Origin: Novosphingobium pentaromativorans US6-1
GTDB lineage: Bacteria; Pseudomonadota; Alphaproteobacteria; Sphingomonadales; Sphingomonadaceae
DNA: 64,000 nucleotides
NCBI RefSeq assembly: GCF_000767465.1
Contig: NZ_CP009291.1
Span: 2,391,501-2,455,500, forward strand
Reading direction: 5' to 3'
Under the pieces are notes generated by a model. It saw only the letters and a program-made list of their open reading frames with translations, was not told where the DNA came from and did not search any database. Both the position numbers and the translations under genes were made by a program. This document shows, in pieces, positions 11,351 to 53,651 of the stretch; the first letter of the stretch is position 1; every line of letters starts with the position of its first letter.

Positions 11351-12337
11351 TCAGATCGATCCTCCGGTCAATCGCTGGCAGATCAGATCGAGCTGATCGA
11401 GCGTTGCGTACTTGATCGTCACCGTACCCGACTTGGGATCGGCATCTGCATTGATCTTCACCGGCAGACCGAGAAATTCCTCGAGGTGATTCTGGACGGC
11501 CGCAATGTCGGCATCTTCCGAAGCGCTGCGGGCCGTGCGAACCCGACGCGGCGCCGCATCCCCGCGCGCCTTCTTGCGCACCAGCTTCTCGATCTCGCGA
11601 ACCGACATCTGTTTGGCGATCGCCGCTTCGGCGATCTCGGCCGCTCCCTCACAACCGATCAGGGCGCGCGCATGCCCCATCGAAAGATCGCCCTTCTCGA
11701 CCATCACGATCACATCGTCCGGCAGCGCGAGCAGGCGCTGGAAATTGGCGACATGACTGCGGCTCTTGTCGACCATGCGGGCGATCTCGGCCTGGGTCAT
11801 GCCTTCCATCTCGGAAAGCCGATTATAGGCCCGCGCCTCTTCGATCGGGTTCAGGTCTTCGCGCTGGAGGTTCTCGATCAGCGCCAAGGCCATGACTTCG
11901 CGTTCGCTCAGATCGCGAATCAGCGCGGGGATCTCGTGCAACTGTGCCTTCTGCGCCGCGCGCCAGCGACGTTCACCGGCGACGAGCTGGTAGCGGCCAT
12001 TGGCCATAGGCCGCACGATGATCGGTTGGATCACCCCGCGCTGGGCAATCGATGCAGCCAGTTCTTCGAGCGCCTCTTCCTCGAAAATGCGGCGCGGCTG
12101 ATCCGGGTGCGGGGTGATATCGGATATCGAAAGCGTGGCGAGACCACCGACGCGCGGTGCGTCCGCCGCCGATCCGCCCGCTTCATCCGAATGTGCGAGC
12201 GGTTCCTCGCGGCGTGTCTCACCCAGCAAGGCACCGAGGCCGCGTCCCAGACCCTTGGGCTTCTGCTTCATCGGCTTGGCCCCCACGGAGCTCAATCCCT
12301 GGGGAGCACTGATACGGACAACAGAATCTTCGCTCAT
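11351..12337 (-). CDS. parB: Chromosome partitioning protein ParB
   Basis: A 328-residue CTP-dependent DNA clamp that loads at parS and spreads to form the partition complex. It shows the N-terminal GLGRGLGALLG motif (residues 29-39, the ParA-stimulating end), the ParB/Srx domain with GERRWRA at 121-127 (CTP-binding arginine patch), a central helix-turn-helix region (MTQAEIARMVDKSRSHVANF), and a C-terminal dimerisation segment. The start at 12337 overlaps the parA stop by four bases (ATGA). Four parS sites occur within 5 kb, and a probable oriC is 12 kb away. Confidence 0.96.
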   Translation of the reverse strand: MSEDSVVRISAPQGLSSVGAKPMKQKPKGLGRGLGALLGETRREEPLAHSDEAGGSAADAPRVGGLATLSISDITPHPDQPRRIFEEEALEELAASIAQRGVIQPIIVRPMANGRYQLVAGERRWRAAQKAQLHEIPALIRDLSEREVMALALIENLQREDLNPIEEARAYNRLSEMEGMTQAEIARMVDKSRSHVANFQRLLALPDDVIVMVEKGDLSMGHARALIGCEGAAEIAEAAIAKQMSVREIEKLVRKKARGDAAPRRVRTARSASEDADIAAVQNHLEEFLGLPVKINADADPKSGTVTIKYATLDQLDLICQRLTGGSI

Positions 12338-13110
12338 GCCGCTTTCCTCTTCTCGGGCAGTCGGGTGATCAGTTCCCGGGCCAGCGCCATGTAGGCGCGA
12401 CTGCCGGCACAGGCGTGATCGTAAATCAATGCAGGAACGCCATGGCTGGGCGCTTCGGACAGACGGACGTTGCGCGGGATCGTCGTCTCGAACACCAGTT
12501 GGCCAAGGCACGAGCGCACATCGTCAGAGACCTGCTCGGTGAGGCGATTGCGCCGATCGAACATGGTGAGCGCGATGCCGATGATGCCGAGGTCTGGATT
12601 GAAGCGCTGCTGAACCCGCTCCACCGTCTGGAGCAGCTGGCTCAACCCCTCGAGCGCGAAGAATTCGCATTGCAGCGGTACCAGCAAGGTATCGGCTGCG
12701 GTCAGCGCATTGAGCGTCAGCAGCCCCAGCGAGGGCGGACAGTCGATCAGGCAGACATCGTAGCCGATATCCTTGCGAAGCGCGTGCTGGAGACGGTGAG
12801 CGCGATCCTCGGCGCCGACCAGTTCTACTTCGGCCCCGGACAGGTCGACTGTGGCGGGCAGAAGATCGAGTCCGGGAATACGCGTCGGGATGACGCAATT
12901 CTCGACCGGTGCCTGATCGACCAGCACATCGTAGGTCGATGCATCGCGCTCGGATGCCGAAATGCCGACTCCGGTCGATGCATTGCCCTGGGGATCAAGG
13001 TCGATAAGCAGAGTCTTCCAACCCGTGGCCGCGAGCGCAGTCGAGACATTGATCGCTGTGGTCGTCTTGCCGACGCCGCCCTTCTGGTTGGCAATCGCGA
13101 TACGGATCAC
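12334..13110 (-). CDS. parA: Chromosome partitioning ATPase ParA
   Basis: A 258-residue Walker-type ATPase that moves ParB-parS complexes toward the cell pole. It begins [20 protein letters not shown], the deviant Walker A motif of the ParA/MinD family, with LLIDLDPQGNAS as A' motif and VCLIDCPPSLGLLT as Walker B. It has no N-terminal DNA-binding extension, so it is the chromosomal ParA/Soj type. It overlaps rsmG and parB by four bases at either end, indicating translational coupling. Confidence 0.96.
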   Translation of the reverse strand: MIRIAIANQKGGVGKTTTAINVSTALAATGWKTLLIDLDPQGNASTGVGISASERDASTYDVLVDQAPVENCVIPTRIPGLDLLPATVDLSGAEVELVGAEDRAHRLQHALRKDIGYDVCLIDCPPSLGLLTLNALTAADTLLVPLQCEFFALEGLSQLLQTVERVQQRFNPDLGIIGIALTMFDRRNRLTEQVSDDVRSCLGQLVFETTIPRNVRLSEAPSHGVPALIYDHACAGSRAYMALARELITRLPEKRKAA

Positions 13111-13748
13111 TTGGTCTTACCCTTCCTGCCGGTCAAGTTGCCGACAATAATGCCTGCCTGCGGGTCCGTAAGAGACTGTTCCACGTGGAACACATGCCGC
13201 CACTTGCGAAGGTCATCCAATTCTTGCTGTGCAGACCGCCCTTTGGGCAACAGCCAGATCGTGTCACTTGTGGAAAATCGCGCGGATAATGTCAGAAGTC
13301 GGTCCAACGGTGCAAATGCACGCGCGGAAATGACCCCCACCTGACATGTCTCGACCATTTCGAGACGCTGACCGACGATCCTTGAGCGCTCCAGACCCAT
13401 GGCGATTCGCGCGCGGTCGAGCCATTCGATTCGGCGCGTGCGCGATTCGACCATCAGCACTTCAAGTTCGGGCCGAAGTGCTGCGATGACGAGACCAGGG
13501 AACCCCGCCCCTGTTCCCAGGTCCATCCATGGCAGCGATGTTTCACGTGGAACATGCGGCAACAATTGCGCGCTATCGACAATGTGGCGAAGCCAGACCT
13601 GATCGAGGCTTCCCGCTGAAACGAGGTTCTGGCGCTGATTCTCCTCGACCAGCAAATCCACCAGCCTCTCGAGCCGGGTCATGGCCGCATCGTCGCATTC
13701 GGGCAGCGCTCGCAACCAGGCGCGCGCTTCATCTTCCGTGGTAATCAA
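13107..13748 (-). CDS. rsmG: 16S rRNA (guanine(527)-N7)-methyltransferase RsmG
   Basis: A 213-residue SAM-dependent methyltransferase that modifies G527 of 16S rRNA. The SAM site is [12 protein letters not shown] at residues 75-86; [14 protein letters not shown] and ISARAFAPL are conserved. It sits between mnmG and parA with four-base overlaps on both sides. Two parS palindromes lie inside the coding sequence: one encodes VFHVEQ at about residues 186-191 near the C-terminus, the other HVPRET at 65-70. Part of this protein's sequence is therefore set by the partition sites. Confidence 0.95.
13177..13192. promoter_or_regulatory. parS site 1
   Basis: Perfect 16-bp palindrome TGTTCCACGTGGAACA, the bacterial parS consensus bound by ParB. 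It lies inside the 3' part of rsmG. Confidence 0.92.
13539..13554. promoter_or_regulatory. parS site 2
   Basis: TGTTTCACGTGGAACA, one base pair off perfect symmetry and matching the parS consensus. Inside the 5' half of rsmG, 362 bases from site 1. Confidence 0.9.
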
Positions 13749-15640: not shown

Positions 15641-15656
15641 TGTTTCACGTGAAACA
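15641..15656. promoter_or_regulatory. parS site 3
   Basis: Perfect palindrome TGTTTCACGTGAAACA in the 68-bp gap between the mnmE stop and the mnmG start. The only parS here that is not in a reading frame. Confidence 0.93.
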
Positions 15657-15660
15657 TGCG

Positions 15661-16938
15661 CTATTTGCCAATGCAGAAGCGGCCGAACAAGGCATCGAGC
15701 ATATCCTCGGTCGTCGTCCGGCCAATCAAGGCGTCGAATGCAACCCGGGCCAACCGCAAGGCTTCTGCCACAAGAAGAGGATCGGTCTCGCGAACCGCAG
15801 CGGCAACGGCGGACGCCGCTTCCCCGACGAGCAGATGCTGCCGGCGATTGAGCGCTGCATCACCGGGCCGGGGCATCATCCCTTGCGCGGTCAGGATCAG
15901 GTCCCGACGAAGATCATCCAGGCCAGAACCCGTCACTGCCGAAACCCGATGACGCGGTTCAGTCTTTCCGCCGAGATCCACACGGTCGCTCTGCGCGGCG
16001 ATCTCCCAGGCACCGCGAGGCCCTTCTCCTTCCGGCCCCAACCAGAGTATGAGATCAGCGCCATCCAGAGCCGCACGGGCACGGGCTATACCGATCGCTT
16101 CGATCTCGTCCCCCGTCTCGTCGCGCAGGCCGGCTGTATCTGCAAACACGAAGGGCATCCCGCCAATGGCGACCGCTCGCGTGAGCACATCGCGGGTCGT
16201 ACCGGCGAGCGGTGCAGTGATCGCCGCCTCGTCTTCGACGAGCGCATTGAACAATGTGCTCTTGCCCGCGTTGGGCGGCCCGGCGAGTACGACGCGGAAA
16301 CCGTCCTTCAGCCGTTCGGCACGTGGGCGCTCCAGCCACTGCGAAAGTTCCACGTGGAACTTCGCAAGGCCTTTGAGGAAGTCCTCCGGCAAGTCGGCGA
16401 CATCGTCTTCATCACCGAAATCGAGAACTGCCTCGACGGCAGCCGAAGCTGCGAGGACCCGGTCACGCCAGATCTCAACCTGTCGGGAGAAGGCACCATC
16501 GGCCATGGCCAGGGCGCTGCGGCGTTGCAGCTCGGTCTCGGCCGAGAGAAGATCGGCAAGCCCTTCCGCCTCGGCGAGGTCGATCCGGCCATTTGCGAAG
16601 GCACGCCGGGTGAACTCACCAGGAGTTGCGCGGCGCAACTTCAGCATCTGCGCAAGCGCGGATTCGACGGCGCTCACCACTGCCCTGCCCCCGTGTAAAT
16701 GGAACTCGGCAAGGTCCTCGCCCGTCGCCGTGTCGGGACCGGGGAACCAGAGCACCAGTGCATGATCGAGGATGGCGCCATCCCCATCGCGCAACTTGCG
16801 ATAGCTGGCGCGGCGCGGCGATGGAATGGAACCGGCGAGCGCCGTCATCGCAGCGCCAGCTTCCGGCCCGCTCACGCGCAGGACCGCGATGGCCGCGGGC
16901 GGCGAACCACTCGAAAGCGCAAATATCGTATCGGTCAT
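15661..16938 (-). CDS. mnmE: tRNA modification GTPase MnmE
   Basis: A 425-residue GTPase that acts with MnmG on wobble U34. The N-terminal folate-binding domain has [13 protein letters not shown]. The G domain has G1 [10 protein letters not shown] (residues 219-228), G2 in LAGTTRDV, and G3 DTAG (267-270). The C-terminus is CIGK, matching the CxGK motif with the conserved cysteine. The G4 position reads DRVD (318-321) rather than NKxD, which is unusual. ATG 16938 puts the first strand at the N-terminus. parS site 4 encodes FHVE at 194-197. Confidence 0.95.
16346..16361. promoter_or_regulatory. parS site 4
   Basis: AGTTCCACGTGGAACT, an 18-bp perfect palindrome when extended by one base on each side. 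It keeps the GTTCCACGTGGAAC core but differs from the consensus at the outermost bases. Inside mnmE. Confidence 0.82.
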
Positions 16939-16982
16939 GAAAGGCCCATGCCCCGTCAAACGGAGCGAGGGAAGAGGCTAGA

Positions 16983-23393: not shown

Positions 23394-24425
23394 TTACGCT
23401 TGGTGCTGCCAGGCTCGAACGACCCGCAGCAGGTCCTCGACATGGGCGATCGGCGTGTGCTGGCCGATGCCGTGGCCGAGATTGAACACGTGGGGACGCC
23501 CGGCGAAGGCATCAAGAACCGCATGAGCCTGCTTTTCGAGCTCCGCGCCGCCCGAAAGCAGCAGCAGCGGATCCAGGTTGCCCTGCACGGGCATGCCTTC
23601 GGGCAATTCGCGCGCGGCCCAGATCGGGTCTATCGTCTCGTCGATCCCGACGGCGTCGACTCCTGTCTCGCGGGCATAAGCGGCCAGTTTCTCTCCGGCG
23701 CCCTTCGGAAAGCCGATGATCGGTGTCTGCGGGTGCAGGGCCCTGATCCGCGCGACGATGCGCGCATTGGGCGCCAAGACCCATTTCTCGAACTGCGCGG
23801 GGGCAAGGCTGCCCGACCATGAATCGAACAGCTGGATGGCTTCGGCGCCGGCCGTGATCTGGCCGCTGAGGTACCCGACCGTCACGTCGACGATACCGTC
23901 GATGATCGCCTGGAAGGCTGCAGGATCGCGATAGGCCATGGCCCGGGTCTCATGCTGGTCCCGACTCCCCTCGCCAGCGACCATGTACGTCGCGACGGTC
24001 CAGGGGCTCCCTGCAAAGCCCAACATCGTCTTGTCGGCATCGAGCGAGGCCCGAACCTTGGCGACGGTATCGTAGATCGGGGAAAGCCGTTTCGGCACCG
24101 CGGTAAGTCCGTCCAGCGCATGGTCGACAAGGCGTGGACTCAGTTTCGGCCCCTCGCCTGCCAGGAACTCGAGGTTCTGGCCCATCGCGTAAGGCACGAT
24201 GAGAATGTCGGAAAACAGGATCGCGCCATCGAATCCGAAGCGTTCGATCGGCTGGAGCGTAATCTCGGCTGCGGCATCGGTATCGTAGACCAGCGCGAGG
24301 AATCCGCCCTTCTCTGCACGCAAGGCCCGATACTCCGGAAGATAGCGTCCGGCCTGGCGCATGAGCCAGATCGGGCGCTTGCCGGAATTTTCGCCACGGA
24401 GCGTGTTCAGAAGGAGGCCTGGCAT
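23394..24425 (-). CDS. hemE: Uroporphyrinogen decarboxylase HemE
   Basis: A 343-residue cytoplasmic enzyme converting uroporphyrinogen III to coproporphyrinogen III. The signature RPIWLMRQAGRYLPEYR lies near residues 17-33, with the substrate-binding Asp in LFSDILIVPYAMG and GFAGSPWTVATYM following; the terminal FNLGHGI is conserved. The ATG at 24425 fits the family; the open frame to 24587 runs into the origin and is not expected to be translated. hemE next to oriC is a hallmark of many alphaproteobacteria, including Caulobacter and Rickettsia. Confidence 0.96.
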   Translation of the reverse strand: MPGLLLNTLRGENSGKRPIWLMRQAGRYLPEYRALRAEKGGFLALVYDTDAAAEITLQPIERFGFDGAILFSDILIVPYAMGQNLEFLAGEGPKLSPRLVDHALDGLTAVPKRLSPIYDTVAKVRASLDADKTMLGFAGSPWTVATYMVAGEGSRDQHETRAMAYRDPAAFQAIIDGIVDVTVGYLSGQITAGAEAIQLFDSWSGSLAPAQFEKWVLAPNARIVARIRALHPQTPIIGFPKGAGEKLAAYARETGVDAVGIDETIDPIWAARELPEGMPVQGNLDPLLLLSGGAELEKQAHAVLDAFAGRPHVFNLGHGIGQHTPIAHVEDLLRVVRAWQHQA

Positions 24426-24440
24426 CGCGTTTCGGGTCCG

Positions 24441-24470
24441 ATCAAAAAAAATAAGAGATTTTATAAAAGG
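24441..24470. other. AT-rich stretch of the origin, possible unwinding element and hemE promoter
   Basis: Thirty bases almost free of G and C, including an eight-A run and ATTTTATAAAA, in a GC-rich chromosome. On the minus strand it offers TATAAA for hemE transcription. It is the most easily melted part of the gap. Confidence 0.6.
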
Positions 24471-24490
24471 ATGATGGAGTCTGTTGGCCC

Positions 24491-24499
24491 TGTGGATAT
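24491..24499 (-). promoter_or_regulatory. DnaA box-like site
   Basis: Reads ATATCCACA on the minus strand, one mismatch to TTATCCACA. Confidence 0.65.
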
Positions 24500-24599
24500 C
24501 GGGGACGGGCGACCCTTGCCCGATTTGTCCCGGATTGAACAGGGTGAAGTGGCCGATGCGACTCTCCCTCGCTGCAGAGTCAATCAATCGTTTTGCGCC

Positions 24600-24608
24600 T
24601 TATCCCCA
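24600..24608 (+). promoter_or_regulatory. DnaA box-like site
   Basis: TTATCCCCA, one mismatch to TTATCCACA, beside a further TGTGGAA-containing nonamer at 24612-24620. Confidence 0.6.
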
Positions 24609-24724
24609 GCCTGTGGAATGACTCCGCGGACTGTCCACAAGTACCCCCTGTGGAATCCGGACGATGGGGACGGAATCGGCCTTGCGAGTTGTCACCGGAA
24701 CGCTCCCGTGGTTTATGCCGCTAC

Positions 24725-24733
24725 ATATCCACA
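24725..24733 (+). promoter_or_regulatory. DnaA box-like site
   Basis: ATATCCACA, one mismatch to TTATCCACA, 32 bases upstream of the ppsR start. Confidence 0.65.
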
Positions 24734-24765
24734 GGCCGCCACAAGGACCTCGCGAGACCGCATTC

Positions 24766-25611
24766 ATGGCGCGAATTCACTTACATCTGCTTTCGGATTC
24801 CACCGGCGAAACCCTGGAAATGATCGCCAAGGCAGCGCTCGCCCAGTTCGACGACAGCGAAGTCCTGCGCCATTTCTGGCCGATGGTCCGTTCGCAGCAG
24901 CACCTCGACCGCATCATGGGGGAAATCGCCGCCAATCCCGGTCTCGTCTTCTTCACGCTGGTGAATGAAGAAACGCGCGGAAGGCTGGAAGAGCGGTGCC
25001 ACACGCTGGGGCTTCCCGCCCTTGCCGTGCTCGACAACGTGACCGACGCGCTCGAGGCGCATTTGGGACAGGAAGCGAAGGGGCGTCCCGGTCGCCAGCA
25101 CCGCCTCGACGATGCCTACTTCGCGCGCGTCGATGCGATCCAGTTCACGATTGCCCACGATGACGGGATCGCATGGGAAGACTGGGAAGATTCCGATATC
25201 ATTCTCGCGGGCGTATCGCGCACGTCCAAGACGCCGACGAGCATCTATCTCGCCAATCGCGGCTACAAGGTCGCGAATATCCCCATCGTGGTGGAAAGTC
25301 CGCCGCCGCAGGCCCTCTTCGGTCTGCGCCGGCCGATGGTAGTCGGTCTGACGACGGCGCCGGAGCGCCTCATCCAGGTGCGCCGCAACCGCCTGCTTTC
25401 GCTGAGCCAGTCGCCCGATACCGACTATGTGCAGGCGGAAAAGGTGGAAAGCGAGGTCAAATACGCGCGCCGCATGTTCGCCGATAATTCGTGGCCGGTC
25501 ATCGACGTCACCCGCCGCTCGATCGAGGAAACGGCTGCGGCGATCATCAACCTGTACAACGAGCGCAAGGCCTCGGGCATCAAGGGCCCGGTCGGACCCA
25601 AGCCGATCTGA
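24766..25611 (+). CDS. Pyruvate, phosphate dikinase (or PEP synthase) regulatory protein
   Basis: A 281-residue bifunctional kinase/phosphorylase of the DUF299 family that switches pyruvate phosphate dikinase or PEP synthase off and on by ADP-dependent phosphorylation. The start LHLLSDSTGETLE and the P-loop GVSRTSKT at residues 149-156 are diagnostic. ATG 24766 matches the family; the frame is open back to 24664, inside the origin. This gene (RP001 in Rickettsia) borders oriC in many alphaproteobacteria. Which of the two target enzymes it controls cannot be told here. Confidence 0.92.
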   Translation: MARIHLHLLSDSTGETLEMIAKAALAQFDDSEVLRHFWPMVRSQQHLDRIMGEIAANPGLVFFTLVNEETRGRLEERCHTLGLPALAVLDNVTDALEAHLGQEAKGRPGRQHRLDDAYFARVDAIQFTIAHDDGIAWEDWEDSDIILAGVSRTSKTPTSIYLANRGYKVANIPIVVESPPPQALFGLRRPMVVGLTTAPERLIQVRRNRLLSLSQSPDTDYVQAEKVESEVKYARRMFADNSWPVIDVTRRSIEETAAAIINLYNERKASGIKGPVGPKPI

Positions 25612-25636: not shown

Positions 25637-26221
25637 ATGATCGTTCTCGCATCCAAGAGTGCATCGCGTCGCGCGATGCTGGAAGCTGCCCAGATTCCCT
25701 TCTGCACGCAGCCGGCACATGTCGACGAACGTGCGATCGAAGCAGATCTTGGCGCGGTTCCGGCTGGTGAAGTCGCGCTCGCCCTCGCCAGGGCCAAGGC
25801 CCTTGCGGTTTCGCATAATGCACCCGGTACGCTGGTGCTGGGCAGCGACTCCCTCGTCACCTGCGACGGTTTCCGGTTCGACAAGCCCGGAACGCGCGAG
25901 GCCGCGACCGAGCATCTCCGCTTCTTTTCCGGCAAGGTCATGAAGCTGCACAGCGCGGCAGCCCTGGCGCGCGATGGTGAAGTGGTCTGGGCTGACGGCG
26001 GCCTTGCCGAACTGCACGTGATCGCCATGTCCGATGGCTTCATCGCCGATTACCTCGAGGCCGAATGGCCCGAGGTCTCCGGCTGCGTCGGTGTCTTCCG
26101 CTTCGAAGGCCGGGGCGTGCAACTGTTCGAGAAAGTCGATGGCGACTATTTTACCATTCTGGGCATGCCGCTGCTCAAGGTGCAGGCGGCACTGCGCCAA
26201 CTGGGAGTGATGAAGAAATGA
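25637..26221 (+). CDS. maf: Maf family nucleoside triphosphate pyrophosphatase
   Basis: A 194-residue pyrophosphatase that hydrolyses non-canonical or modified NTPs. LASKSASRRAML at residues 4-15 is the Maf signature; VLGSDSLV holds the catalytic Asp. Maf acts on dTTP/UTP or m7GTP depending on subgroup, which cannot be decided by eye. It is 25 bases after ppsR and overlaps aroE by four (ATGA). Confidence 0.93.
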   Translation: MIVLASKSASRRAMLEAAQIPFCTQPAHVDERAIEADLGAVPAGEVALALARAKALAVSHNAPGTLVLGSDSLVTCDGFRFDKPGTREAATEHLRFFSGKVMKLHSAAALARDGEVVWADGGLAELHVIAMSDGFIADYLEAEWPEVSGCVGVFRFEGRGVQLFEKVDGDYFTILGMPLLKVQAALRQLGVMKK

Positions 26222-27090
26222 CTTCGTCCTCCCGGCCCCAGCCCTATGCCGAAGTGATCGGCGATCCCATCGCCCAGTCCAAGTCCCCGGCGATCCATAA
26301 TTTCTGGCTCGGCAAGCAAGGGATCGATGCACGCTACGAGGCTTGCCGCGTCGCTCCCGGCGGCTTGCCAGATTACCTCGCGGCCCGCCGCGCCGATACC
26401 GGTTGGCGCGGCTGCAACGTGACGATGCCGCACAAGCAGGATATCATTCCGCTGCTCGACCGGCTCGATCCGCTCGCGCAGAGCATCGGCGCGGTCAACA
26501 CCGTCGTGCGCGAGGAAGACGGGACCCTGGTGGGTTACAATACCGATGTCCCCGGCTTCCTAGAACCGCTTCGCGACCGGCTCGATCGGCAGCACCTTTT
26601 CCGCATGGCGCGTATCCTCGGCACTGGCGGAGCTGCCCGCGCCATCATTGCCGCGCTTTCCCGCAAGGGCTTTGTACTTGTCCTGGCCGGTCGCAATCCC
26701 GAAAAGGCGCGCGCCCTGCTCGACGAACTGGCGACCGGAGACGACCACCACGCGATCGACCTCGCCCATTTCAGCCAGGCGACCGATTTTGCCTTTGACG
26801 ACCGCAAGGGCATCATGGACCTTGTCGTGAATGCCAGCCCCCTGGGGATGACCGGTCAGGCGCCGCTGGAATTTGATTTCAGTCATGTCCCTCCCGGCAG
26901 CGTCATTTATGACATTGTTACCAGTCCGCTGGAGACTCTTTTTCTGAAGGAGGCGCGCGAGGCCGGGTTCGAGACAGTGGACGGCCTGTCCATGCTGATC
27001 GGCCAGGCTGCATTTGCCTTCGAGAAGTTCTTCGGCACATTTCCACCACGCGACTCGGACGCCGAGCTTCGGGAGATCCTGCTCAAGTGA
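26218..27090 (+). CDS. aroE: Shikimate dehydrogenase AroE
   Basis: A 290-residue NADP-dependent reductase of 3-dehydroshikimate in aromatic amino acid synthesis. The shikimate site is GDPIAQSKSPAIHN near residues 14-27; the catalytic lysine is in NVTMPHKQ; the nucleotide loop is ILGTGGAARAI near 134-144; GLSMLIGQAA lies at the end. It is coupled to maf and coaE by four-base overlaps. Confidence 0.95.
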   Translation: MTSSSRPQPYAEVIGDPIAQSKSPAIHNFWLGKQGIDARYEACRVAPGGLPDYLAARRADTGWRGCNVTMPHKQDIIPLLDRLDPLAQSIGAVNTVVREEDGTLVGYNTDVPGFLEPLRDRLDRQHLFRMARILGTGGAARAIIAALSRKGFVLVLAGRNPEKARALLDELATGDDHHAIDLAHFSQATDFAFDDRKGIMDLVVNASPLGMTGQAPLEFDFSHVPPGSVIYDIVTSPLETLFLKEAREAGFETVDGLSMLIGQAAFAFEKFFGTFPPRDSDAELREILLK

Positions 27091-27686
27091 CTGCGACTCG
27101 ACCCCGGATTCTGGGACTGACCGGCTCGATCGGCATGGGCAAATCGACAGTGGCGCAGATGCTGCGCGAACTGGGCGTTCCCGTGTTCGATGCGGACGCG
27201 GCGGTGCATGCGCTGCAGGGACCGGGCGGCCGCCTGCTTCCGGAGATAGAGCAAGCCTTCCCCGGAACCACCGGTGCACAGGGGGTGGACCGGCCGAAAC
27301 TGGGCGCCGCGGTCTTCGGAGACAAGGAAAAGCTCGCCCGGCTGGAAGCCATCGTGCATCCCGCCGTGGCCGATATGCGGCAAGAATTCCTGCGGGAAAA
27401 TTCCGACAAATCATTGATCGTATTTGATATTCCGCTCCTTTACGAAAAAGGCGGCGCGCAGGGGATCGATGCCGTGGCCGTTGTTTCCGCCCCCGCCAAG
27501 GCCCAGCGCGAAAGAGTCCTGGCGCGGCCGGGCATGACCGAGGAAAAGTTCGAGCAGATCCTTTCCCTGCAGGTGCCGGACTCCGAAAAGCGTGCGCGGG
27601 CCGACCATGTCATAGACACCGGTACGAGCCTTGCCGAAACGCGCGAACAGGTCGCCCGATTGGTTGCTGCGATGGGTAGCGCATAA
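27087..27686 (+). CDS. coaE: Dephospho-CoA kinase CoaE
   Basis: A 199-residue enzyme catalysing the last step of coenzyme A synthesis, phosphorylating the ribose 3'-hydroxyl. P-loop GLTGSIGMGKST at residues 9-20, then VPVFDADAAVH and IVFDIPLLYE. It starts with GTG inside the aroE stop (GTGA). Confidence 0.95.
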   Translation: MTATRPRILGLTGSIGMGKSTVAQMLRELGVPVFDADAAVHALQGPGGRLLPEIEQAFPGTTGAQGVDRPKLGAAVFGDKEKLARLEAIVHPAVADMRQEFLRENSDKSLIVFDIPLLYEKGGAQGIDAVAVVSAPAKAQRERVLARPGMTEEKFEQILSLQVPDSEKRARADHVIDTGTSLAETREQVARLVAAMGSA

Positions 27687-27739
27687 TTTCCTTCGTCAGC
27701 CCCTTGCACACGGGCCTCAGCAGGCAGATATGAGAAGTG

Positions 27740-28423
27740 ATGAGAGAGATCATCTTCGATACCGAAACGACGGGGTTCGACCCCAAAAACGGTGACCGGA
27801 TGGTCGAAATCGGTTGCATTGAAATGGTCAACCGAGTGCTCACTGGACGCACCTTCCACGCCTACTTCAATCCCGAGCGGACGATGCCGGCCGAAGCGGA
27901 GGCCGTGCACGGTCTTTCCGATGCTTTCCTGGCCGACAAGCCGCTGTTTGCGGAAAGGGCGCACGAGTTCCTCGACTTCATCGAAGACAGCCCGATGGTC
28001 GCGCATAACGCCGGGTTCGACTTCAACTTCATCAATTTCGAATTGCAGACCTGCGGTCATGCGGAAGTCAGCCGCGAGCGGATGGTCGATACCGTGGCCC
28101 TGGCCAAGGTTCGCCATCCTGGCGCGAAGCTCTCGCTCGATGCGCTGTGCACGCGCTATGGCATCGACCGCAGCCACCGCACCAAGCACGGCGCGCTGCT
28201 TGACGCCGAACTGCTGGCACAGGTCTATGTCGAGCTTCGCGGAGGCCGCCAGATCGGCCTCGAGCTGGGAGCCGAAATCACCGAGATCGTGACGGAAACG
28301 AAGATCCTCACACGAAGGGATCGACCTTTCCGTCAGCCGCGTTCCCACGCGGCCACCGAAGAGGAACTTGCCGCTCATGCGGAATTCCTCAAGTCGGTCG
28401 ATACCCCGCTCTGGGGTGCCTGA
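27740..28423 (+). CDS. dnaQ: DNA polymerase III epsilon subunit DnaQ
   Basis: A 227-residue proofreading 3'-5' exonuclease. Exo I IIFDTETTGFDP, Exo II HNAGFDFNFIN, and Exo III HGALLDAELLAQVYVEL are intact, giving the DEDDh active site. After residue ~190 a short tail with polymerase-binding character remains. ATG 27740 follows AGAAG; a GTG three bases upstream is the alternative. It closes the ppsR-maf-aroE-coaE-dnaQ run, as in many alphaproteobacteria. Confidence 0.95.
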   Translation: MREIIFDTETTGFDPKNGDRMVEIGCIEMVNRVLTGRTFHAYFNPERTMPAEAEAVHGLSDAFLADKPLFAERAHEFLDFIEDSPMVAHNAGFDFNFINFELQTCGHAEVSRERMVDTVALAKVRHPGAKLSLDALCTRYGIDRSHRTKHGALLDAELLAQVYVELRGGRQIGLELGAEITEIVTETKILTRRDRPFRQPRSHAATEEELAAHAEFLKSVDTPLWGA

Positions 28424-53130: not shown

Positions 53131-53586
53131 CTACCTGCGGTCCCTGAAGAAAGCCCTGAGCATTTCCGCGGCTTCGGCTTCCCCCATGCCGGAATAGACT
53201 TCCGGACGGTGCAGGCACTGGTCGTGTTCGAATACGCGCGCGCCATGTTCGACCGCGCCGCCCTTGGGATCGGGTGCGGCGTAATAGAGCCGGGCGATGC
53301 GGGCGTGGGAAATTGCCCCGGCGCACATCGCGCAGGGCTCCAGCGTCACCCATAGCTCGCACCCTTCGAGTCGCTCATTGCCGAGAATCCGGGCGGCGGC
53401 GCGAATCGCTTCGATTTCTGCGTGGCTGGTCGGGTCGTGGCGTTCGCGCGGGCCGTTGCGGCCGGTGGCGATGACCTTTCCGTCCCTGACGATCACCGCG
53501 CCGATAGGCACTTCGCCCGAATCCGCGGCTTCCCGGGCTTGCGTCAGCGCCAGTTGCATGTATTCGGGGAGCGGCCAGCGAGTCAT
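53131..53586 (-). CDS. tadA: tRNA adenosine(34) deaminase TadA
   Basis: A 151-residue zinc deaminase that converts A34 to inosine in tRNA-Arg(ACG). Zinc site HAE (H55, E57) and PCAMC (C85, C88), with EVPIGAVIV and LYYAAPDPKGGAVEHG typical. Convergent with the RNase T2 gene. Confidence 0.94.
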   Translation of the reverse strand: MTRWPLPEYMQLALTQAREAADSGEVPIGAVIVRDGKVIATGRNGPRERHDPTSHAEIEAIRAAARILGNERLEGCELWVTLEPCAMCAGAISHARIARLYYAAPDPKGGAVEHGARVFEHDQCLHRPEVYSGMGEAEAAEMLRAFFRDRR

Positions 53587-53622
53587 GAGGACGCGCTAGC
53601 CTGCGAAAAACCGCGGCGCAAC

Positions 53623-53651
53623 TTGACGTTCACCTGGTGACTCGGTAAGGG
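53623..53651 (+). promoter_or_regulatory. Possible rpmB promoter
   Basis: TTGACG (53623-53628), 17-base spacer, TAAGGG (53646-53651), about 50 bases before rpmB. The -10 match is poor. Confidence 0.3.

Follow-up and report, generated by a model that had tools for sequence, protein, structure and literature searches.

A 340-bp non-coding gap between the diverging genes hemE and ppsR raises the question of where replication of the main 3.98-Mb replicon of this Novosphingobium-like sphingomonad begins. We examined a window of 64 kb around this gap (C1:2391501-2455500), taken from contig C1 (3,979,506 bases) of a genome of 5,457,578 bases in 6 contigs. The initial annotation had interpreted the gap as a probable chromosomal origin, and this interpretation is supported here by a GC-skew switch, DnaA boxes, gene order, parS sites and an opposite dif-like site. 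Judging from these sequence features, we estimate a probability of about 95% that the gap is the DnaA-dependent oriC of this replicon, at which DnaA boxes, AT-rich melting, bidirectional forks and a ParABS system would act together.

Gene context and conservation of the hemE-ppsR gap

The gap corresponds to C1:2415926-2416265, and its limits, its non-coding nature and the divergence of its flanking genes agree exactly with the initial annotation (Table 1). This arrangement of hemE and a COG1806 gene is the layout of hemE/COG1806-type alphaproteobacterial origins. On the left side, rho, a hemJ-like gene (below its cut-off) and hemE are all transcribed leftward, and the genes from ppsR to dnaQ are transcribed rightward. 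Thus, the proposed reversal of gene strand around the gap holds for the immediate neighbors, but strands are mixed farther left than these three genes. The PpsR protein shares 99% identity with that of Novosphingobium mathurense, which places the organism within Novosphingobium or very close to this genus. Rfam and tRNA scans of the whole window gave no matches.

Table 1. Coordinates of features in the window (positions in the 64-kb window unless prefixed by C1)
Feature	Position	Strand	Basis
Candidate oriC gap (340 bp, non-coding)	24426..24765		hemE and ppsR diverging; skew switch, boxes, kept gene order
hemE, uroporphyrinogen decarboxylase	23394..24425	-	NCBIfam TIGR01464, E 6.6e-115
ppsR (PPDK/PEP synthase regulator, COG1806 / RP001 type)	24766..25611	+	NF003742, E 2.7e-98
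maf-like (below its cut-off), aroE, coaE, dnaQ	25637..28423	+	run away from the origin, 3' of ppsR
hemE-proximal AT-rich stretch, candidate unwinding element (DUE)	24441..24475		AT content
Conserved block around GGAGTCTGTTGGCCCTGTGGATATCGGGGA (one GANTC and the DUE-proximal DnaA box)	24470..24505		MAFFT, 85 gaps
DnaA box 1, ATATCCACA, 1 mismatch	24491..24499	-	motif scan
DnaA box 2, TTATCCCCA, 1 mismatch	24600..24608	+	motif scan, alignment
Weak DnaA box, CTGTCCACA, 2 mismatches	24631..24639	+	motif scan, alignment
DnaA box 3, ATATCCACA, 1 mismatch	24725..24733	+	motif scan, alignment
Six GANTC sites	24477, 24560, 24577, 24620, 24653, 24673		motif scan
GANTC pair (24560, 24577)	24560..24581		same alignment columns in 60/85 and 53/85 gaps
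TTGTC-N17-TTTATG module inside CCCGTGGTTTATGCC, candidate ppsR promoter	24689..24718	+	conserved spacing
parB (parB and parA together: 11351..13110)	11351..12511	-	Pfam ParB_N, HTH_ParB
parA	12334..13110	-	Pfam AAA_31
parS	13177..13192		palindrome scan
parS	13539..13554		palindrome scan
parS	15641..15656		palindrome scan
dif-like site (outside the window)	C1:770966-770993		at the return switch of skew and GGGNAGGG

A 701-bp query, which includes coding ends so that the hemE or ppsR end alone can suffice for a hit, matched 141 of 149 genomes of the family and found no match in the other 8. From these matches, a set of 90 family gaps was assembled, comprising the gap itself, the 29 next-ranked loci and 60 loci picked by hand from further listed matches. 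Divergent hemE and ppsR flank all 90 gaps, whose length is 286-493 bp (mean 332). Both ends fall on an ATG in 46 of them; in the rest, one end or both have a different codon or were estimated by extending a partial tblastn match, and some lengths therefore deviate by a few codons. In the class, PpsR was detected in 206 of 290 genomes, and all 30 top-ranked loci (25 of them outside the family) have the divergent arrangement. Since loci were top-ranked or hand-picked, exceptions would be under-sampled in these counts. With the likely origin of this replicon fixed, the 90-gap set may be read as a footprint of the family's origin.

Replicon-scale evidence

GC skew was sampled in sixty 20-kb stretches and in the window itself (8 pieces), covering ~32% of C1. 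When two arms were fitted on a 10-kb grid, the best solution placed the change from minus to plus at 2.42 Mb (residual 292, vs. 955 without a switch), and the return switch falls at 720-790 kb or slightly beyond among the equal fits listed, or near 770-785 kb in 5-kb steps. Between 0.80 and 2.4159 Mb, 22 of the 24 pieces have a negative skew; elsewhere, 40 of 44 pieces have a positive one. The initial annotation had suggested that the skew minimum should lie at the gap, which is borne out at this sampling and grid size; inside the window, cumulative skew is shallow, with its lowest point at 28-30 kb and an almost flat course to 35 kb, at least 3 kb past the gap.

At the return switch, the dif-like sequence GTTGATAA-N6-TTATGTAAAAT was found at C1:770969-770993. 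The 28-mer containing it is the sole one with at most 8 mismatches to E. coli-type dif in 120 kb, with none in a 240-kb control; the E. coli-type pattern at ≤3 mismatches had no match in the genome. Of 59 family genomes, 22 (this one among them) carry dif-like sites at ≤2 mismatches (e.g., ATTGATAATATATATTATGTTAAAT), compared with 0 of 59 for a reversed-pattern control. On a circular C1, the arms leading from the origin to this site would differ in length (~2.33 vs. ~1.65 Mb). A second dif-like site with 2 mismatches is present on another contig (C4:126592-126616), and dimers of that replicon may likewise be resolved by XerCD.

Only three parS palindromes with ≤2 mismatches were detected genome-wide; all lie in the window beside parAB, ~9-11 kb from the gap, as expected of an origin of the hemE/COG1806 type. 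A weaker fourth parS-like palindrome, AGTTCCACGTGGAACT, is located at 16346-16361 inside an ORF (15661-16959) that appears MnmE-like by eye. The dnaA gene, whose product has the N-terminal, ATPase and DNA-binding domains, is found at C1:2773384, 357 kb from the gap. This distance agrees with the published remark that Sphingomonadales do not conserve a position of dnaA close to ori (PMC8116508). We place the origin here because the skew switch, the parS cluster and the dif-like site agree.

One polar motif shows a different pattern. GGGNAGGG flips strand at the terminus switch, but does not flip at the gap: over 2.416 to 2.4955 Mb (C1:2416266-2495500), it occurs 5 times in forward and 14 times in reverse orientation, as is typical of the left arm, and turns forward only past this stretch. 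This pattern counts against an exact coincidence; perhaps this stretch has been inverted locally, or the polar motif differs there.

DnaA boxes and the AT-rich stretch

DnaA boxes were scanned with the reference TTATCCACA at ≤1 mismatch, using 2000 dinucleotide shuffles as a control. The gap contains 3 such boxes compared with a shuffle mean of 0.06, a number reached in 0 of the 2000 shuffles, and no exact (0-mismatch) box was found in its 340 bp. All three one-mismatch boxes of the initial annotation were thereby recovered, but, of the three additional two-mismatch boxes it had proposed, the scan returned one (24631-24639). As background, 62,163 windows of 340 bp were drawn from 1.264 Mb of C1 (~32%, including the 64-kb window), giving averages of 0.020 boxes and 0.600 GANTC sites; all windows with at least 3 boxes, or with at least 2 boxes plus at least 4 GANTC sites, lie over this gap. 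A variant box, TTGTCCCCA, was not enriched at ≤1 mismatch across the window (6 vs. a shuffle mean of 8.79).

The family gaps contain on average 1.82 boxes at ≤1 mismatch vs. 0.05 after shuffling (n = 90); at least three are present in 24 gaps, fewer than two in 39 and none in 6. Box cores on the two sides have opposite orientations: 59 TGTGGA cores were counted in the second tenth of the gap near hemE, and 36 TCCACA cores in the last tenth near ppsR. In the gap itself, a DnaA-box cluster beyond chance, as expected of the hemE/COG1806 type, is present.

DnaA regulates promoters as well. The gap might be a mere shared promoter region of hemE and ppsR, in which DnaA would use the boxes to regulate transcription, and replication of C1 would then start at another locus. 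This explanation would fit the promoter-like TTGTC-N17-TTTATG module aimed at ppsR and the change of GGGNAGGG strand ~80 kb right of the gap. However, the change in skew, the clustered parS sites and the dif-like sequence all place the origin here, and 3 boxes per 340 bp occur nowhere else in the 1.264 Mb sampled, which makes a promoter-only role highly improbable.

For the favored reading as an origin, an AT-rich element is also available. The most AT-rich 30-mer of the gap (24446-24475) has 83% AT, in line with the AT-rich stretch proposed in the initial annotation; 8 of the 63,971 30-mers in the window reach this AT content. With each of the 90 family gaps divided into seventeenths, the second one counted from hemE has a mean AT fraction of 0.77, and the others 0.36-0.57. 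Such a candidate unwinding element would be expected of a hemE/COG1806-type oriC. We also applied the published DnaA-trio pattern, which is loose (a box, a spacer of 0-16 and at least 3 NAN trios). Four NAN trios were found 15 bp from box 1; nevertheless, runs of at least 3 are not enriched in the family (24 of 90 gaps vs. 36 of 90 with flanks shuffled), and the match in this gap is not counted as support because shuffled flanks score higher.

Conserved blocks and the ppsR-side module

MAFFT alignment of 85 gaps (the 5 of at least 400 bp being left out of the 90) revealed a footprint with a consistent order. From hemE to ppsR, it consists of the AT-rich stretch; GGAGTCTGTTGGCCCTGTGGATATCGGGGA with a GANTC site and box 1; TGCCCGATTTNTCCC; the GANTC pair; box 2, in the form TTATCCCCA or CTATCCCCA; the weak box at ~24631; TTGTC-N17-TTTATG within CCCGTGGTTTATGCC; and a TTGTCCACA-like box 3, TTGTCCACA itself being the commonest form at that position (26 of 85 aligned gaps). 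The conserved block between boxes 1 and 2 (24516-24541, TGCCCGATTTNTCCC...TGAACAG) matches no DnaA box.

The spacing of the ppsR-side module was counted in 60 gaps, leaving out the 30 of 90 that lack the CCNGTGGTTTATGC element at ≤2 mismatches. TTGTC lies exactly 17 bp upstream in 58 of these 60, and the distance from the element to the TCCACA of the last DnaA box is fixed in 44. Exact CCNGTGGTTTATGC has 34 matches in 32 of 119 family genomes (a reversed control pattern was found in 6 of 119); by-eye comparison of positions assigns 28 of them to this gap and 3 elsewhere, with 3 unplaceable. The geometry suggests that the module is probably the ppsR promoter, and a scan of 24300-24900 for sigma-70 consensus and terminators gave no match.

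The last result, together with the fixed distance to box 3 and the near-restriction of exact matches to the gap, could also be explained if the CCCGTGGTTTATGCC element were a site for an unrecognised origin-binding protein and not part of a promoter. We consider this possible but rather unlikely: a TTGTC at exactly 17 bp is ordinary promoter geometry aimed at ppsR, and the element is missing from a third of the family gaps (30 of 90), so it is no general origin part. If the module is the ppsR promoter, box 3 would sit at the likely start point of ppsR, and DnaA bound there would therefore also dampen this gene.

CtrA-type and GANTC sites

CtrA recognizes the motif TTAA-N7-TTAA. The gap contains no TTAA at all and hence no CtrA-type pair. 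Among the 90 family gaps, TTAA-N6-8-TTAA was found in 1 and the exact N7 form in none, and 44 are devoid of any TTAA. Outside the family, 7 of 25 gaps lack TTAA and 6 of 25 contain TTAA-N6-8-TTAA; strict CtrA pairs are often missing there too, and their absence is thus common beyond the family. Loss of CtrA has been reported to be harmless to growth in Sphingomonas melonis (PMC8116508). The Caulobacter-type CtrA brake is probably absent at this origin.

All six GANTC sites of the initial annotation were found, compared with a shuffle mean of 2.02 (6 were reached in 21 of 2000 shuffles). Six sites per 340 bp are not unique to the gap, being also present in one sampled C1 stretch (L044) and at 53368-53639, a second dense six-site cluster inside the window. 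Every family gap has at least one GANTC (90 of 90), with an average of 4.71 per gap vs. 1.41 after shuffling and 2.84 in the 25 gaps outside the family. Since the genome encodes both a RAMA-domain (CcrM-type) protein and GcrA, methylation of the GANTC sites is probable.

These data could be taken further. If the gap is an origin whose firing is set by the GANTC methylation state through CcrM and not by CtrA, newly replicated hemimethylated origins would be barred from firing until late in the cycle, when CcrM acts. A hemimethylation model has been proposed for Agrobacterium ori2, a RepC-type origin (PMC11514494). Besides the CcrM-type and GcrA genes and the single family gap with a CtrA-type pair, this idea draws on the excess of GANTC in family gaps (424 observed vs. 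128.7 expected, 3.3-fold, the strongest enrichment among 16 palindromic pentamers) and on the column conservation of the GANTC pair. On the other hand, TANTA (2.47-fold) and AGNCT (2.45-fold) are enriched in the gaps as well, and the four other sites are kept in 48 (24477), 27 (24673), 3 (24653) and 2 (24620) of 85 gaps. Alphaproteobacterial intergenic DNA generally over-represents GANTC, and Caulobacter without CcrM has normal DNA content, from which the authors concluded that initiation control needs no CcrM (PMC3973325). We therefore regard methylation-set firing as improbable. The same low confidence applies to the broader proposal that CtrA no longer controls the origins of sphingomonads, which would instead be timed once per cycle by methylation of a conserved CcrM (GANTC) cluster next to the DnaA boxes. 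Such a timer would play the part of Dam/SeqA in alphaproteobacteria, at an origin that depends on DnaA. Given the scarcity of CtrA-type sites and the surplus of GANTC, the question of how initiation is limited to once per cycle becomes testable in a laboratory sphingomonad.

Proposed mechanism and comparison with known origins

As a DnaA-dependent origin, the gap would work as follows. DnaA, encoded 357 kb away, would bind the boxes at 24491, 24600, ~24631 and 24725, and the AT-rich stretch beside hemE (24441-24475) would melt, as established for DnaA origins. On firing, two forks would depart in opposite directions, with hemE, ppsR and their neighbors transcribed away from the origin, and ParABS, acting through parS ~9-11 kb off, would separate the sister origins.

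Similar origins have been described in relatives. Ori-Finder predicted oriC near hemE in Novosphingobium sp. PP1Y and N. aromaticivorans, with three DnaA boxes and a base-asymmetry switch as observed here; a DnaA gene is also named as close by in that study, in contrast to the 357 kb here (PMC4059872). In Sphingopyxis granuli TFA, as for most Sphingomonadaceae in DoriC, oriC was predicted at hemE, and the present gap shares with it the hemE region, gene order, conserved DnaA boxes and a putative DUE (PMC4741004). As consulted here, that paper does not mention the GANTC sites or the ppsR-side module. Likewise, in the literature consulted on sphingomonad origins, GANTC and CtrA, we found no report of GANTC conservation or of this module in Sphingomonadaceae origins.

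Caulobacter crescentus Cori also lies between hemE and the COG1806 gene and has several DnaA boxes, consistent with the remark in the initial annotation that Caulobacter and Rickettsia carry oriC at the hemE / RP001 junction (PMC1914354). GANTC sites are another shared feature (PMC3973325). However, five CtrA sites and a single IHF site are described in Cori (PMC1914354), whereas this gap has zero TTAA and 89 of the 90 family gaps lack TTAA-N6-8-TTAA. Since predicted origins at hemE have been published for Novosphingobium and Sphingopyxis, the location found here is expected; beyond it, this analysis adds a dense and conserved GANTC set, the near-absence of CtrA-type sites and a rigid ppsR-side module.
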